Source: Rhizobium sp. RM (GTDB taxonomy: Bacteria; Pseudomonadota; Alphaproteobacteria; Rhizobiales; Rhizobiaceae). From it: a DNA stretch of 64,000 nucleotides. Below the pieces are notes generated by a model. It did no database searches, was not told where the DNA came from, and was given only the letters and a program-made list of their open reading frames with translations. Positions 1,458 through 15,734 of the stretch are shown piece by piece. Both the position numbers and the translations under genes were made by a program. How positions within the stretch are numbered: position 1 is the first letter of the stretch; each line of letters begins with the position of its first letter. The DNA lies in the NCBI RefSeq assembly GCF_013390595.1, contig NZ_JACAWV010000022.1, positions 744,001 to 808,000 of the forward strand. The letters are read 5' to 3'.

Positions 1458-2030
1458 TTACATACCCTGCGAGCCACGGTTCATGGCAGCGATACCGGTG
1501 CGGCAGATTTCGATCAGGCCGAGAGGCTTGATGATCGCCACGAACTGGTCGATTTTCGAGGACTTGCCGGTGATTTCGAAAATGAAATGCTCGACCGTTG
1601 CATCGACCACCTTGGCCTGGAACGCATCGGCAAGACGCAGAGCCTCGGCACGGTCTTCGCCGGCACCGGCAACCTTGATAAGCGCCACTTCGCGCTCGAT
1701 CGGCCGCTCCTGCCCCAACTCGCGAGCGCGGACTGTCAGATCGAGAACCCGGTGCACAGGAACGATGCGCTCCAACTGGGCCTTGATCTGCTCCAGAACG
1801 ACCGGCGTGCCACGGGTCACGATGGTGATACGCGACAGATGCGCCTCATGTTCCGTCTCCGAAACCGTAAGGCTTTCGATGTTGTAGCCCCGGCCTGAAA
1901 ACAGGCCGATGACGCGGGCAAGCACGCCGGGCTCGTTGTTGACGAGAACCGACAGCGTGTGGTTTTCCGCAACCGCCGTTTCCTTCTGGATGAAGTAGGC
2001 AGAGCCGGTGGGTTGTAGGTGTGCGTTCAT
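1458..2030 (-). CDS. ilvH: Acetolactate synthase small (regulatory) subunit
   Basis: A 190-residue regulatory subunit of acetohydroxyacid synthase, the first common enzyme of valine, leucine and isoleucine synthesis. The N-terminal ACT domain is clear (HTLSVLVNNEPGVLARVIGLF, then GYNIESLTVS), where valine binds to inhibit the enzyme; the C-terminal half carries the second domain (FEITGKSSKIDQFVAI). A GAGGAAA ribosome site lies about 6 bases before the ATG. It follows the large-subunit gene by 21 bases in the same direction, forming an ilvIH operon controlled by the leader at 3908-4056. Confidence 0.97.
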   Translation of the reverse strand: MNAHLQPTGSAYFIQKETAVAENHTLSVLVNNEPGVLARVIGLFSGRGYNIESLTVSETEHEAHLSRITIVTRGTPVVLEQIKAQLERIVPVHRVLDLTVRARELGQERPIEREVALIKVAGAGEDRAEALRLADAFQAKVVDATVEHFIFEITGKSSKIDQFVAIIKPLGLIEICRTGIAAMNRGSQGM

Positions 2031-2051: not shown

Positions 2052-3857
2052 TTAAACCAGCTGACGGCCCTTGGCGTCGATGGCATTGGCAACAGCCTCG
2101 TCCGTCGCCTCATCCGGCAACAGCATCTCGTTATGGGCTTTACCAGACGGGATCATCGGGAAGCAATTGGCAAGATTGGCAACGCGGCAATCGAAGATAA
2201 CCGGCTTCTTGACCGCAATCATCTCAGCAATCTTGTCGTCCAGTTCCTTCGGGTCGTCGCAGTACATGCCGACCGCGCCGTAAGCTTCCGCCAGCTTGAC
2301 GAAATCAGGCATCGCTTCGGTATAGGAGTTGGACAGGCGGTTGCCATGCAGCAACTGCTGCCACTGACGAACCATACCCATATACTGGTTGTTCAAAATG
2401 AAAATCTTGACCGGCAGGTTATACTGGATGGCGCAGGACATTTCCTGAATGCACATCTGGATCGAGGCATCACCGGCAACGTCGATGACCAGCGCATCCG
2501 GATGGGCAACCTGAACGCCGATGGCGGCAGGCAGACCATACCCCATGGTGCCGAGGCCACCGGATGTCATCCAGTGGTTCGGTTCTTCGAAACCAAAGAA
2601 CTGCGCTGCCCACATCTGGTGCTGGCCGACTTCGGTGGTGATGTAGGTGTCATGTCCCTTCGACGCCTCATACAGACGCTGAAGCGCGTATTGCGGCATG
2701 ATGACATCGTTTGAGTTCTTGTAGGCGAAGGAATTGCGGGCACGCCAACGATCGATCTGCTGGTGCCAGTCTGCCGTCTGCGCTTTTTCAGGCTTCTTCG
2801 GCAGCGCACGCCAGAGGCGAACCATATCCTCGAGAACATGGCTGACATCGCCGATGATCGGAACGTCGACACGAACGTTCTTGTTGATCGAAGACGGATC
2901 GATATCGATGTGGATCTTCTTGGAGTTCGGCGAAAACGCATTCAGACGGCCGGTAATACGGTCATCGAAACGCGCACCGATACAAACCATGACATCGCAA
3001 TCGTGCATGGTCATGTTGGCTTCGTAAGATCCGTGCATGCCCAGCATGCCGAGCCAGTTCTTGCCAGATGCGGGATAGGCACCGAGCCCCATCAGGGTCG
3101 AGGTAATCGGGAAATTGGTCAGCTCGACCAGTTCGCGCAGCAAGCGGGTTGCTTCCGGCCCGGAGTTGATAACGCCGCCGCCCGTATAGAAAACAGGCTT
3201 TTTTGCCTTCGACATCAATTCGATGGCCGCATGAATGGCGTTCAGATCGCCTTGGACCTTCGGCTTGTAGCTCTTCTGCTGAACAGCAGCGGAAGGCGGC
3301 GTATAGGTGCCGGTGGCAAACTGGATATCCTTGGGAACGTCAACGACAACCGGACCCGGACGGCCGGTCTGAGCGATGCGGAAAGCCTCATGGATGATGC
3401 CAGCCAGTTCGTTGACGTCCTTTACCAGCCAGTTGTGCTTGGTGCAGGGGCGCGTAATACCAACCGTGTCGCACTCCTGAAACGCATCGGAACCGATCAG
3501 TGTGGTCGGAACCTGGCCGGAAATGCAGACGAGCGGAATGCTGTCCATCAACGCGTCCTGCAGAGGCGTAACCGCATTGGTGGCACCAGGACCGGAGGTG
3601 ACAAGCATGACGCCGACCTTGCCAGTGGAACGGGCATAACCTTCGGCCGCATGGCCGGCGCCCTGTTCATGGCGCACGAGGATATGCTGAATGTCTTCCT
3701 GCTGGAAAATCTCGTCATAAATCGGAAGGACTGCACCGCCCGGATAACCGAAGATGTGCTCCACACCGTTATCCTTGAGGGCTTTCAGAACGATTTCCGC
3801 GCCCGTCATGCGATTGCTGTTTTCCGTATTGTCCTTATCCGTCATTGCCTGTTCCAT
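2052..3857 (-). CDS. ilvI: Acetolactate synthase large (catalytic) subunit
   Basis: A 601-residue thiamine-diphosphate enzyme (often named IlvB/IlvI) that joins two pyruvates, or pyruvate and 2-oxobutyrate, to start branched-chain amino acid synthesis. The N-terminal domain has GYPGGAVLPIYDE and the catalytic glutamate in RHEQGAGH (about residue 64). The C-terminal domain holds the TPP/Mg motif GDASIQM...ILNN and the region NQYMGMVRQWQ. Two in-frame ATGs, at 3857 and 3845, could both serve as start. The gene is preceded by a leader peptide and attenuator, so branched-chain amino acid supply likely sets its expression. Confidence 0.97.
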   Translation of the reverse strand: MEQAMTDKDNTENSNRMTGAEIVLKALKDNGVEHIFGYPGGAVLPIYDEIFQQEDIQHILVRHEQGAGHAAEGYARSTGKVGVMLVTSGPGATNAVTPLQDALMDSIPLVCISGQVPTTLIGSDAFQECDTVGITRPCTKHNWLVKDVNELAGIIHEAFRIAQTGRPGPVVVDVPKDIQFATGTYTPPSAAVQQKSYKPKVQGDLNAIHAAIELMSKAKKPVFYTGGGVINSGPEATRLLRELVELTNFPITSTLMGLGAYPASGKNWLGMLGMHGSYEANMTMHDCDVMVCIGARFDDRITGRLNAFSPNSKKIHIDIDPSSINKNVRVDVPIIGDVSHVLEDMVRLWRALPKKPEKAQTADWHQQIDRWRARNSFAYKNSNDVIMPQYALQRLYEASKGHDTYITTEVGQHQMWAAQFFGFEEPNHWMTSGGLGTMGYGLPAAIGVQVAHPDALVIDVAGDASIQMCIQEMSCAIQYNLPVKIFILNNQYMGMVRQWQQLLHGNRLSNSYTEAMPDFVKLAEAYGAVGMYCDDPKELDDKIAEMIAVKKPVIFDCRVANLANCFPMIPSGKAHNEMLLPDEATDEAVANAIDAKGRQLV

Positions 3858-3907
3858 CCCGAGTTGGCTTTGGATATCGCTGAGCCTTACGGCCCGTGTG
3901 AAGACAT

Positions 3908-3984
3908 AAAAAAAGGCCCCTAGAGGAGCCTCGTTTAGCGCATGGGTGCTTTCGCCGGATGGTTACACCATCCTGCCCATGCGC
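3908..3984 (-). promoter_or_regulatory. Transcription attenuator of ilvIH
   Basis: On the minus strand, the leader RNA first forms a long hairpin: arms GCGCATGGG and CCCATGCGC (3976-3984 and 3938-3946, perfect 9 pairs) enclosing an inner GGATGG/CCATCC stem that contains the leader stop codon. Just downstream is a terminator: GGCTCC, loop TCTA, GGGGCC and seven T's (3908-3930). A ribosome stalled at the Val/Leu/Ile codons of the leader would cover the 5' arm of the first hairpin. A clean antiterminator pairing was not found by eye, so the exact switch is inferred. The terminator lies about 50 bases before ilvI. Confidence 0.75.
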
Positions 3985-4019
3985 CGTCCCACCACGATAA
4001 GTACGTTAAGATTTTTCAT
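3963..4019 (-). CDS. ilvIH leader peptide
   Basis: An 18-codon open frame encodes MKNLNVLIVVGRRMGRMV. It carries the run V-L-I-V-V at residues 6-10, exactly the three amino acids whose synthesis the downstream ilvIH genes start. It ends inside the first hairpin of the attenuator. No Shine-Dalgarno sequence precedes the ATG, and the predicted promoter places the transcription start within about 3 bases of it, so the peptide is probably made from a leaderless mRNA, as is known for trpL of Sinorhizobium. Its function is to sense charging of Val, Leu and Ile tRNAs by translation speed. Confidence 0.8.
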   Translation of the reverse strand: MKNLNVLIVVGRRMGRMV

Positions 4020-4027
4020 GGGGCGGA

Positions 4028-4056
4028 GTGTTAGCCACAAACGCGGCAGCCGTCAA
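4028..4056 (-). promoter_or_regulatory. Predicted ilv leader promoter
   Basis: On the minus strand TTGACG (4051-4056) is followed, after exactly 17 bases, by TAACAC (4028-4033). The expected transcription start is about 6-8 bases further, near 4020-4022, next to the leader ATG at 4019. The -10 is imperfect, the -35 is good. Confidence 0.55.
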
Positions 4057-4223
4057 CGCATATTGCGGAAAAAATCATCTTCCGTTCATTTTATTGCCAG
4101 AACGACCGCCAAAACGAAATTTTCGAACGATATCGCTACACCAGTTGTTAAATAGGTTCATCTTATTCTGGAAAGCACAGGCGCTGTCCGAAATGCGGTC
4201 TTGTCCAGCGCCCGGGATGACAT

Positions 4224-6218
4224 GTGAACAACGGCGAGTTTTATTCATCGTCCAAGACGGACGAAAACGAGCGACGATCCAGCCAGCAAGCGCCCAATCG
4301 GCAGCTTGGGCGTGTGATCGCCTGCGATGGCGCACGCGCCACAATCGCCGCAGATACCGATCCCGGTTCCACCGATCTTTCACAACTCTGGTCCGTGGGC
4401 CGCCTTATCTCCATCGAGATGGGCACCAGCCGGGTTGCCGCCCTCACCTGCTCGATGCGCACCAAAGACGACGGCTGGTCGAGCGACGGTAGCAACACGT
4501 TGCTGATTGAGGTCGACCTGCTGGGTGAAGTCTACCGGACGGAAGATGGCAGCGAACGCTTCTCGACCGGCATCTCACGATATCCTTATCTTGGCGCCGT
4601 GGCGCATCGCATCCGCACAAGCGATCTCTCGAAAATCTACGATAGCGGCAAGCGCGACGCCTGTGTCATTGGCAAGCTCACGCAGGACGATGCCATCGAC
4701 GCAACGATCAGCATTCCGCAGATGCTGGCCAAACACTTTGCCGTCGTCGGCTCCACGGGTGTCGGCAAATCGACCGCTGTTTCATTGCTGCTCAACAAGG
4801 CAATCGAAACCGACCCGAAACTTCGTATCCTCATTCTCGATCCGCATAACGAATTCGCCGCCGCCTTCCCCAGCAATTCCGTCGTCATCGACACCGATAC
4901 GCTCGATCTGCCGTTCTGGCTGATGCGACTGGATGAGTTTGCCGAGGTAGTGTTTCGCGGGCGAAAGCCGGTTCCTGAAGAGATGGACATCCTTCGTGAT
5001 CTTATCCCCGATGCAAAACGGGTTTTCCGGGGATCAGAGGGCTCTGCCGTTCGGCGCAGTTCCGACAAGAGCGCGGTCACCTCGGACTCACCCATTCCCT
5101 ATCGGATCGCCGATCTGCTGGCGATGATCGACGAACGCATCGGCCGACTTGAAGGACGCAGCGACAAGCCCGCATTGCGCTCGCTCAAAATCCGTATCCT
5201 CTCGGCGATCAATGATCCGCGCTATCACTTCATGTTCTCCAGCAACACGATCAGCGACACGATAATGGAAACGCTGGCACATATTTTCCGTGTTCCCGGC
5301 GATGGCAAACCGATCTCTGTCTTCCAGCTCTCCGGCATTCCATCTGAAGTCGTAAACTCCGTTGCCTCGGTGCTTTGCCGCATGTCGTTTGAACTCGCCG
5401 TTCTGGCACGTGGTTCGCTGCATATGCTGGTGGTTTGCGAGGAAGCGCACCGTTATGTTCCGGCAGACCCGGAGCGCGGCTTTTTCCCGACCCGACAGGC
5501 GATTGCCCAGATTGCCAAGGAAGGCCGAAAATACGGCATTTCCCTCGGCGTCATCAGCCAGCGGCCGAGCGAACTGGATCAGACGATCCTGTCGCAGTGC
5601 TCGACGGTTTTTGCCATGCGTCTCTCCAACGAGAACGACCAGAAGATCATTCTTTCTGCGGTGCCGAACTCGTCGACATCGACCACAAGCTTCCTGTCGT
5701 CGATCGGCAATGGCGAAGCAATCGCCTTTGGTGAGGCTGTCAGTGTGCCTATGCGGATGCGCTTTGACCGCGTTCCCACTGCCAAGCTGCCGAAAGCCAG
5801 TGGCGCCACCACCCACGCAGTACAGGAAACGCCTGATACCGTCGATCTGAGCTCCATCGTCACACGCATGCGGGCCGCGGCAAAGCCAACGATCTCCGGC
5901 TTCCAGCAGAGCTTCGATGCCGCATTCCCGGTCTCCGAGACACCGGAACCGCAGGAGACTGAAGAAACACAGAACTGGCGACAGGAACTGCACAGCCCGT
6001 CAAATACGGTTGAAGGCACGCGCGGCTACGAACCCTATCGTCCAGACATGTTGCCCGGACGCAGTGCGCAGCCTGCCCAAGCCGACCCAGTCAACGACCT
6101 GCGGAAAGCCTCTTTCCAGTTGCAGGCGCAGAACGCCCCGCCACCAGTCGAAAACAGACCGTCGCTGCGCGAAAGTCTGCTCAAAAAACCACTCGGCAGT
6201 CTTTATCGCAAAGATTGA
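4224..6218 (+). CDS. HerA-type ATP-binding protein
   Basis: A 664-residue P-loop ATPase of the HerA/FtsK-like class. An N-terminal barrel-like region (residues about 25-150) precedes the Walker A GSTGVGKST at about 176-184. A conserved ILDPHNEF follows, and the HerA-type Walker B LVVCEEAHRYV lies near residue 405, then the sensor/arginine part IAKEGRKYGISLGVISQRPSELD. The last 150 residues are Pro/Gln/Glu-rich and look disordered. HerA proteins are hexameric DNA translocases that usually work with the nuclease NurA; no NurA-like gene is adjacent here. The start is a GTG with a weak ribosome site, so it is uncertain. Precise function is unknown. Confidence 0.85.
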   Translation: MNNGEFYSSSKTDENERRSSQQAPNRQLGRVIACDGARATIAADTDPGSTDLSQLWSVGRLISIEMGTSRVAALTCSMRTKDDGWSSDGSNTLLIEVDLLGEVYRTEDGSERFSTGISRYPYLGAVAHRIRTSDLSKIYDSGKRDACVIGKLTQDDAIDATISIPQMLAKHFAVVGSTGVGKSTAVSLLLNKAIETDPKLRILILDPHNEFAAAFPSNSVVIDTDTLDLPFWLMRLDEFAEVVFRGRKPVPEEMDILRDLIPDAKRVFRGSEGSAVRRSSDKSAVTSDSPIPYRIADLLAMIDERIGRLEGRSDKPALRSLKIRILSAINDPRYHFMFSSNTISDTIMETLAHIFRVPGDGKPISVFQLSGIPSEVVNSVASVLCRMSFELAVLARGSLHMLVVCEEAHRYVPADPERGFFPTRQAIAQIAKEGRKYGISLGVISQRPSELDQTILSQCSTVFAMRLSNENDQKIILSAVPNSSTSTTSFLSSIGNGEAIAFGEAVSVPMRMRFDRVPTAKLPKASGATTHAVQETPDTVDLSSIVTRMRAAAKPTISGFQQSFDAAFPVSETPEPQETEETQNWRQELHSPSNTVEGTRGYEPYRPDMLPGRSAQPAQADPVNDLRKASFQLQAQNAPPPVENRPSLRESLLKKPLGSLYRKD

Positions 6219-15097: not shown

Positions 15098-15249
15098 ATC
15101 TGCTCCTTGTGCGCCCCGGCCCGGCGTTTCTTAAAAGCGACCGGTTGCAGGGAGAATGTGCCAGCAAATTCTTCGCGTCAAGGATGCGCCAAAGTGCACA
15201 TAAGACAGGGATGGCTTCATCGATTTGTCACCTTCCCCCTTTTCTACGC

Positions 15250-15604
15250 CATCGGAAACGCCTATATGAGCCGTGCCGGGATTTATCCCGGCTATGGCGA
15301 TAAACGGTCGGTGTAATAAACCTATTGGACCCGGGGGCGGTACCCGGCGCCTCCACCAAAAACCGGCGGGCCTTGTGAGGCCGGCTTTTGATGGGGGCGA
15401 AATAGGATCGACAAGGGCGTAAAGATCGAACTTTTGCTCGGCATGATACCGCCGTTATCGGGTCACAAGTGTAGTTGCAAACGACAACAACGCTAAGGAA
15501 TACGCTCTCGCTGCCTAATGGCGGTGCGGGAATTCCGCTCTAAAGCCCTTACGGTTAGCCCCGTAAGGCGGGGTTCGGAGGTACCTGGCAACAGAAACCT
15601 CCAC
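15250..15604 (+). ncRNA. ssrA: Two-piece (permuted) tmRNA
   Basis: Alphaproteobacterial split transfer-messenger RNA. The acceptor piece comes first and ends at 15358 with CGCCTCC-ACCA. A linker with a CCGGC/GCCGG hairpin (15359-15392) is removed in processing. The coding piece starts at 15393 with GGGGGCG, which pairs with CGCCTCC and gives the G3-U70-type wobble that alanyl-tRNA synthetase requires. The tag frame 15477-15518 encodes ANDNNAKEYALAA then TAA. The RNA rescues stalled ribosomes and marks the products for ClpXP. The 5' and 3' limits are approximate; a hairpin GGAGGT/ACCTCC at 15577-15602 probably ends the coding piece. Confidence 0.95.
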
Positions 15605-15734
15605 CTTCTCCATTTTGCCGGAATTCGTTTTATGATAGCTGACTCGCATGCGACGTCGGCTTTTCCGTTGATGCGGTTTAAGACATTGCGTATACTTGGT
15701 TAAAAGACGTTCGAATAAGGAAAGACAGGACCGC

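Follow-up and report, generated by a model that had tools for sequence, protein, structure and literature searches.

A probable branched-chain attenuator before ilvIH in Rhizobium sp. RM, and related leaders before transporter and acetolactate synthase paralogue genes

The ilvIH genes of Rhizobium sp. RM are very probably preceded by a branched-chain attenuator, as judged from sequence comparison. The element lies on the minus strand of the 64,000-nucleotide stretch of contig NZ_JACAWV010000022.1 that we analyzed (the window), where a leader of about 112 nt upstream of ilvI and ilvH contains promoter boxes, an 18-codon ORF, an outer stem, an inner hairpin and a terminator. Coding for V/I/L, the stem, the terminator, the codon-to-stem spacing and the leaderless promoter spacing are what the comparison of relatives brings out. 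The whole, including an antitermination account, is probably best explained as ribosome-mediated attenuation of ilvIH transcription in response to charged Val, Leu and Ile tRNA, where we infer the effect of starvation, the antitermination itself and a bridging role of the stem. The main idea of the original prediction for this DNA is sound and was largely anticipated in print. A fixed geometry that lacks an antiterminator, together with copies before exporter and paralogue genes, appears to be new here. We found no description of either in the open-licence literature, which for transporters was covered narrowly, through titles and the starts of abstracts.

The predicted features are as follows, in window coordinates.

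4051..4056, minus strand: -35 box TTGACG (from the sequence; all 25 leaders examined in f1, the window's family, have TTGAC at the distance of a leaderless promoter)
4028..4033, minus strand: weak -10 box TAACAC (pattern match; rejected by the general promoter scan)
3963..4019, minus strand: leader ORF MKNLNVLIVVGRRMGRMV, 18 codons plus stop (ATG 4019-4017, TAA 3965-3963)
3990..3995, minus strand: key codons V9-V10 (GTG GTG), the first starting 11 nt 5' of the stem
3976..3984, minus strand: 5' arm of the outer stem, GCGCATGGG, inside the 3' part of the leader ORF (covariation)
3938..3946, minus strand: 3' arm of the outer stem, CCCATGCGC (covariation)
3957..3973, minus strand: inner hairpin GGATGGT-GTA-ACCATCC, overlapping the leader stop codon (Rfam structure and fold)
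3908..3931, minus strand: intrinsic terminator AGGCTCC-TCTA-GGGGCCT plus T tract (terminator scan, Rfam structure, covariation)
3898..4017, minus strand: match to Rfam RF02502, Atu_C8 sRNA (117.8 bits, E = 2e-25, full model; above the gathering threshold of 50 bits)
2052..3857, minus strand: ilvI, acetolactate synthase 3 large subunit (NF006581, 1228 bits)
1458..2030, minus strand: ilvH, acetolactate synthase small subunit (NF008864, 222.3 bits)

Three parts that the original prediction had pointed out are all present on the minus strand: the 18-codon frame with its V-L-I-V-V run (4019-3963; codons 6-10 of MKNLNVLIVVGRRMGRMV), a perfect nine-pair hairpin that overlaps the 3' end of the leader ORF (GCGCATGGG/CCCATGCGC, 3984-3976 with 3946-3938), and a GC terminator with seven T's (3931-3908), which is also conserved in relatives. 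The terminator arms are AGGCTCC (3931-3925) and GGGGCCT (3920-3914), the seven T's occupy 3914-3908, and the T tract is 50 nt from ilvI. Just past the terminator, the segment GGGCC-GTAA-GGCTC (3868-3881, minus strand) resembles the terminator arms by eye and could pair after readthrough.

A leader transcript 5' end is predicted at about 4022-4019, at or no more than 3 nt from the ATG, and no purine-rich ribosome site is seen before the leader ATG in the window. The promoter had been called a good one. Its boxes TTGACG and TAACAC are indeed separated by a 17-nt spacer, a combination for which 0.01 exact matches are expected per window although the pattern was picked post hoc, but the -10 box is weak and a general promoter scan of 3500-4500 returns no promoter on either strand (0.6 in shuffles), missing that of the leader as well. 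A terminator scan of the same interval finds one terminator compared to 1.2 in shuffles, and one of such quality is no better than chance. Because single-sequence statistics are insufficient for this element, the case for it rests on conservation.

The full RF02502 model matches the leader and begins at the third base of its ATG, which is consistent with a leaderless 5' end but is no proof of it. Rfam lists the family, a Rhizobiales RNA, as 'Gene; sRNA', with a description line that has no leader ORF or ilvIH. The "C8" of its name reportedly stems from a transcriptome paper. The suggestion that the attenuated RNA could also act as a small RNA gains weight from this catalogued RNA family at the leader, and an RNA catalogued as a small RNA would in turn gain a likely cis role. 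RF02502 occurs once in the genome of the window and, at E <= 1e-3, in 217 of 397 genomes sampled from its order (72 of the 397 above the family cut-off). Within the window's family it is found in 193 of 199 genomes, and the six that lack it have genomes of 1.2-2.0 Mb. Matches outside the order are weak: in a set of 190 genomes from the class, ten have a match at E <= 0.01, and two of these ten belong to the order, including the window's own. L312, described below, is the one stronger exception.

A pattern scan of named genomes returned at least 120 stretches, and the 80 loci listed include several that lack a leader and come from unrelated phyla. Among the matches listed, Agrobacterium genomosp. 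13 (L118) is the closest named relative: its leader peptide is identical and its IlvI shares 96.3% identity, which suggests that the window belongs to Agrobacterium and f1 to Rhizobiaceae. Across 90% of the query, the leader shares 81.7% identity with a site in S. meliloti Ak57 that precedes acetolactate synthase genes and is divergent from a DUF87 gene, in a record labelled as a plasmid. A contig labelled Arenimonas (L167), also among the matches listed, carries a Rhizobium-like leader and ilvI (85.8%) and is probably mis-binned. Elsewhere in the window, positions 15236-15605 match the alphaproteobacterial tmRNA with 312.1 bits.

Attenuators of alphaproteobacterial ilvIH and ilvB genes are said to have been predicted by Vitreschak in 2004. 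An 'ilvIH cis regulatory' element between S. meliloti SMc01431 and SMc01432 is tabulated with a citation of Vitreschak 2004 in an excerpt of PMC2573895, and the basic idea is therefore not new. Sections of two other papers give an alphaproteobacterial 'ilvB leader peptide' as previously described, from the same source (PMC1273637), and attenuation of Caulobacter ilvIH and ilvBN (PMC4117421). These attenuators have the operon in common with our element and, in S. meliloti, the same interval between ilvI and a divergent gene, but exporter copies and the split between leaderless and Shine-Dalgarno (SD) versions are absent from the portions of the citing accounts that were available. Corynebacterium ilvB-II and ilvB-OMG motifs likewise have branched-chain-rich leader ORFs before ilvB genes (PMC10272879, in part), but belong to other bacterial lineages, and other ilv motifs are shown in an excerpt of PMC8632094. 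The main text of PMC3738593 and PMC4201532 does not mention ilv or acetolactate, and the available part of PMC5596092 is uninformative on both. A link between the leader and the rhizobial RNA smrC45 was rejected, since smrC45 is identified with speF in the excerpt of PMC2573895.

The comparison uses 112 leaders from 109 loci (L001-L110 minus L046, a wrong region of 208 bases), three loci having two leaders each. The gene behind the leader matches ilvI in 101 cases, one of which (L032) is the paralogue; ten leaders precede an MFS transporter gene and one a contig end. Removal of similar sequences reduced the set to 93 leaders, which were used for codons, column pairs, complementarity, truncated transcripts, path lengths and distances. 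In family f11 (L042-L044), a further leader with another ilvI lies some 2.7 kb beyond the order leader-ilvI-ilvH.

The first of the two key codons (position 0) encodes V, I or L in 93/93 leaders, as do positions +1 (91), -1 (91) and -2 (85), and the share falls to 51% at -3 and 12% at +2 outside this run. The score used to choose leader start codons rewards V/I/L runs and may bias the peptide starts, but the residue at position 0 comes from stem-anchored alignment columns, independent of that choice. Several synonymous codons are used per residue among the 93 leaders, and this variation of codons with retention of residue type argues that the leader is translated. At positions 0 and +1, 98 of 153 Val codons are GTA, compared to 4% of 143 Val codons in five ORFs of the window; the window leader itself has GTG at both key codons instead of the rare GTA. 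The distance from the first key codon to the stem is 11 nt in 109 of the 112 leaders. Hydrophobic codons and terminator, for which an alignment of relatives had been proposed along with the original prediction, are both kept.

If the leader were instead an unregulated small-protein gene with its own terminator, ilvI would have to be transcribed from elsewhere. This is highly improbable given that only those 50 nt separate the T tract from ilvI, that the 3500-4500 scan offers no other promoter on either strand (having missed the leader's own too), and that a V/I/L run at a fixed distance from a stem is unexpected for a free small protein. Formation of the terminator in all states at equilibrium would agree with such a gene, though the E. 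coli attenuators that served as controls behave likewise.

The promoter spacing of a putative leaderless transcript is found in the window's family but is not general across families. In f1, TTGAC lies 33-45 nt upstream of the start in 25/25 leaders and an SD-like sequence in 0/25. The same TTGAC spacing occurs in f23 (15/16) and f28 (2/2), and none of the 43 leaders of f1, f23 and f28 has an SD-like sequence. Such sequences precede 11 of 12 leaders in f11, and in several other families TTGAC is found 53-59 nt from the leader start. Both types coexist in f6, where 15 of 21 leaders have SD-like sequences and, by inspection, precede ilvI, while five leaders before MFS genes are of the leaderless type; L063, a sixth f6 leader before an MFS gene, was counted with the SD-like group because the script took an upstream ATG. 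This distribution suggests one attenuator with leaderless and led versions.

Covariation was scored in a 68-row alignment drawn from the 112 leaders, with no more than nine from any family. Seven of the nine outer-stem pairs are changed in both arms, and 94.8% of the stem's cells are paired in the 68 rows. The covariation score of stem plus terminator is 0.402, compared to 0.196 in shuffles (0/500 reach the observed score) and at most 0.139 when they are slid to six other placements, and the counts of pairs and of pair types in the two elements are matched by 1/500 shuffles. Across leaders the stem-loop is 43-53 nt long, the linker from stem to terminator has a median of 7 nt (range 1-10), and the stop codon is at least 27 nt from the terminator in 88 of 93 leaders (minimum 26). 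The median path from key codon to U tract is 82 nt, or 35 nt without the stem-loop. In relative terms this shortened path is no less variable than the whole, with coefficients of variation of 0.045 and 0.037, respectively.

Equilibrium folding of the complete leader was discarded as a test for an antiterminator. It forms the terminator in all states and does likewise for the E. coli thr, trp and leu leaders, so it does not discriminate, and truncated-transcript and shuffled-complementarity tests were used instead. In the former, the RNA ends at the 5' arm of the terminator, the ribosome edge is set to 13 (also 11 and 15), and the pairing of the arm with upstream sequence is recorded. We define a classical signature as a pairing probability of at least 0.55 in the stalled state that is also at least 0.3 above the stop state. 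The three E. coli leaders, with terminator arms set by eye, served as positive controls.

These tests bear on a classical trp/leu-type attenuator, in which stalling would free a segment that pairs with the 5' arm of the terminator by means of a short, non-canonical or lineage-specific contact that would pass unnoticed in the alignment. In the 93 leaders (edge 13), the arm pairs upstream with a mean probability of 0.35 in ribosome-free RNA, 0.26 when the first key codon is occupied, 0.39 when the second is, and 0.40 when the ribosome is at the stop, whereas the E. coli controls give 0.62-0.99 when stalled and 0.0 at the stop. The window leader has values of 0.40 at V1, 0.45 at V2 and 0.37 at the stop (edge 13), which do not amount to an antiterminator by this definition. 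All three E. coli controls show the classical signature and 88 of the 93 leaders lack it at edge 13. It does appear in 5 leaders there, in 2 at edge 11 and in 8 at edge 15, as well as in 3 of 53 second-type leaders and 2 of 21 f74 leaders (both described below). Complementarity of the inter-stem segment to the terminator arm is at chance, with means of 64% of shuffles and 61% of non-cognate pairs being equally stable, as opposed to shuffle fractions of 0, 1.5 and 6.5% in the three E. coli controls. Two leaders, L061 and L072, form strong duplexes with the terminator arm, yet among the 60 top-scoring column pairs just one joins upstream sequence to the arm, with standard pairing in 20% of rows. 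The order of peptide, stem and terminator is otherwise classical. Weighing these points, we regard the classical arrangement, which rivals only the bridging step below and not the attenuator as such, as possible but rather unlikely.

The original prediction had reported no antiterminator pairing, and it is likewise missing in most relatives. Its view of the leader as a branched-chain version of the trpL design stands as far as leader peptide, conserved V/L/I codons, stem and terminator are concerned, but not for the antiterminator, which is undetectable in most relatives. S. meliloti trpL/rnTrpL resembles the predicted leader in being a leaderless ORF whose terminated RNA starts at the AUG, according to sections of PMC7298713, which concern another amino acid and describe an antiterminator of a kind that is not detectable here.

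With no competing antiterminator visible, we propose that a stem-held ribosome blocks the terminator. The transcript would begin at the leader AUG and be translated without an SD sequence. When branched-chain amino acids are ample, the ribosome would reach the stop codon, at least 26 nt from the terminator and too far away to disturb it, and termination would release the RNA of about 120 nt that is catalogued as Atu_C8. Under starvation, the ribosome would halt at the V/I/L codons and RNA polymerase would continue into ilvIH. With V9 in the A site, the ribosome would extend approximately to the base of the outer stem, which could loop out about 47 nt and put the stalled ribosome some 0-10 nt from the terminator along the RNA, where it might block the terminator sterically. 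If this geometry is true, a stalled ribosome can govern termination with no refolding of the RNA, and switches of this kind would go undetected in searches for competing hairpins.

The bridging step, in which the outer stem holds the stalled ribosome near the terminator, is a tentative proposal that we consider doubtful. Sections of PMC4824070 report that in E. coli a ribosome close to a terminator, such as one at a stop codon, represses it, with full termination above 27 nt, but also that pausing or slowing of translation increases termination and that terminators less than 100 bp into a coding region are not repressed. The latter two results, together with the path variability, argue against a simple transfer of this proximity model. 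Two further points count against bridging. With the variable linker (1-10 nt), the ribosome edge would miss the terminator arm in the majority of leaders, and some four pairs of the stem would be opened by a ribosome positioned on the second V. E. coli pyrBI is similar in that ribosome distance sets terminator efficiency (PMC4824070, in part), but there UTP and RNA polymerase pausing are involved where we propose amino acids and a looped-out stem. By a pyrBI-type criterion, no antiterminator is seen and the stop distances fit, the linker length varies, and ribosome proximity is what we infer.

The terminated RNA, the peptide or both could instead be the main product and act in trans like S. 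meliloti rnTrpL/peTrpL (excerpts of PMC7298713 and PMC10117765), with attenuation of ilvIH secondary. Cataloguing of the region as the sRNA family RF02502 and conservation of the stem besides the terminator would agree with this, but the location of 101 of 112 leaders before an ilvI match and their tuned V/I/L codons fit control in cis, and we judge such a trans-acting role improbable.

A similar layout occurs in a second alphaproteobacterial order. A crude scan upstream of ilvI in 29 class-wide loci gave one convincing leader outside the window's order (L329), which led to family f74. Here, a GCGCATG...CATGCGC stem lies upstream of ilvI in 21/30 loci, and all of the 21 but L354, L360 and L376 (18 of 21) have a V, I or L codon 11 nt ahead of the stem. 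The terminator abuts the stem in 21/21 (0 nt), and 2/21 have the classical signature.

Leaders of this kind also occur before other genes. Of 60 genomes from the genus Rhizobium, 45 contain at least two RF02502 matches. We examined all 46 extra copies in these 45 genomes, defined as the lower-scoring matches, and labelled genes by their best reference-protein match: a Bcr/CflA-like MFS gene follows 29 of the copies, and an acetolactate synthase paralogue follows 17. The higher-scoring copy precedes ilvI in 6/6 genomes checked of the 45. Outside Rhizobium the picture differs. In the family sample, two matches are found in 7 of 199 genomes, three of which are Rhizobium; ilvI stands behind both copies in G455 and behind the second copy in G536, and G565 and G568 have a second copy too. 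One f6 MFS protein passes TIGR00710 (210.8 vs 200.9 bits) and one Rhizobium protein fails it (172.8), so we call these proteins only Bcr/CflA-"like". Named cases include R. etli IE4771, where the gene is annotated as an MFS transporter, and Devosia L142 and L143 are among the matches listed.

These second-type leaders number 66, or 60 when unique (42 MFS, 17 paralogue, 1 ABC), and the terminator arm could be found by pattern in 53. Both key codons are V or L, in frame, in 60/60, where extraction imposed the 11-nt position but left the residues free, and TTGAC lies 35-38 nt upstream in 58/60. The synthase paralogue (L275-L305, 16 loci) keeps HEQGAGH(A/T)AEGYA in 16/16, but the loop NNQYMGMVRQWQ of the window IlvI is missing or altered in 13 of 16, with a similar loop in L283, L286 and L290. 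Outside the window's order, the L312 leader (G745), MRMMQVSVVVGRRMGKAA, also precedes an MFS gene, which suggests transfer of leader and gene as a unit.

Taken as a whole, an attenuator without an antiterminator that has the same layout in two alphaproteobacterial orders, was duplicated in front of genes for Bcr/CflA-like transporters and for a diverged acetolactate synthase, and would induce export when charged branched-chain tRNA runs short is a speculative reading that we think is probably not correct in full. Were it true, the exporter copies would couple transport in nitrogen-fixing bacteria to a signal from branched-chain amino acids or tRNA charging, and export might be induced by, for example, an inhibitor of branched-chain synthesis or of aminoacylation.

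In one Rhizobium genome (G625; L301, L302), an MFS copy and a synthase-paralogue copy occur together. In Sinorhizobium sp. A49 (L117:1173), among the matches listed, a second-type leader lies upstream of an ORF that by eye looks like an ABC transporter. A second-type leader query matched 17 plasmid records (H1-H17), the best matches being mostly Rhizobium replicons larger than 2 Mb and some of the weaker ones being the ilvI leader itself.
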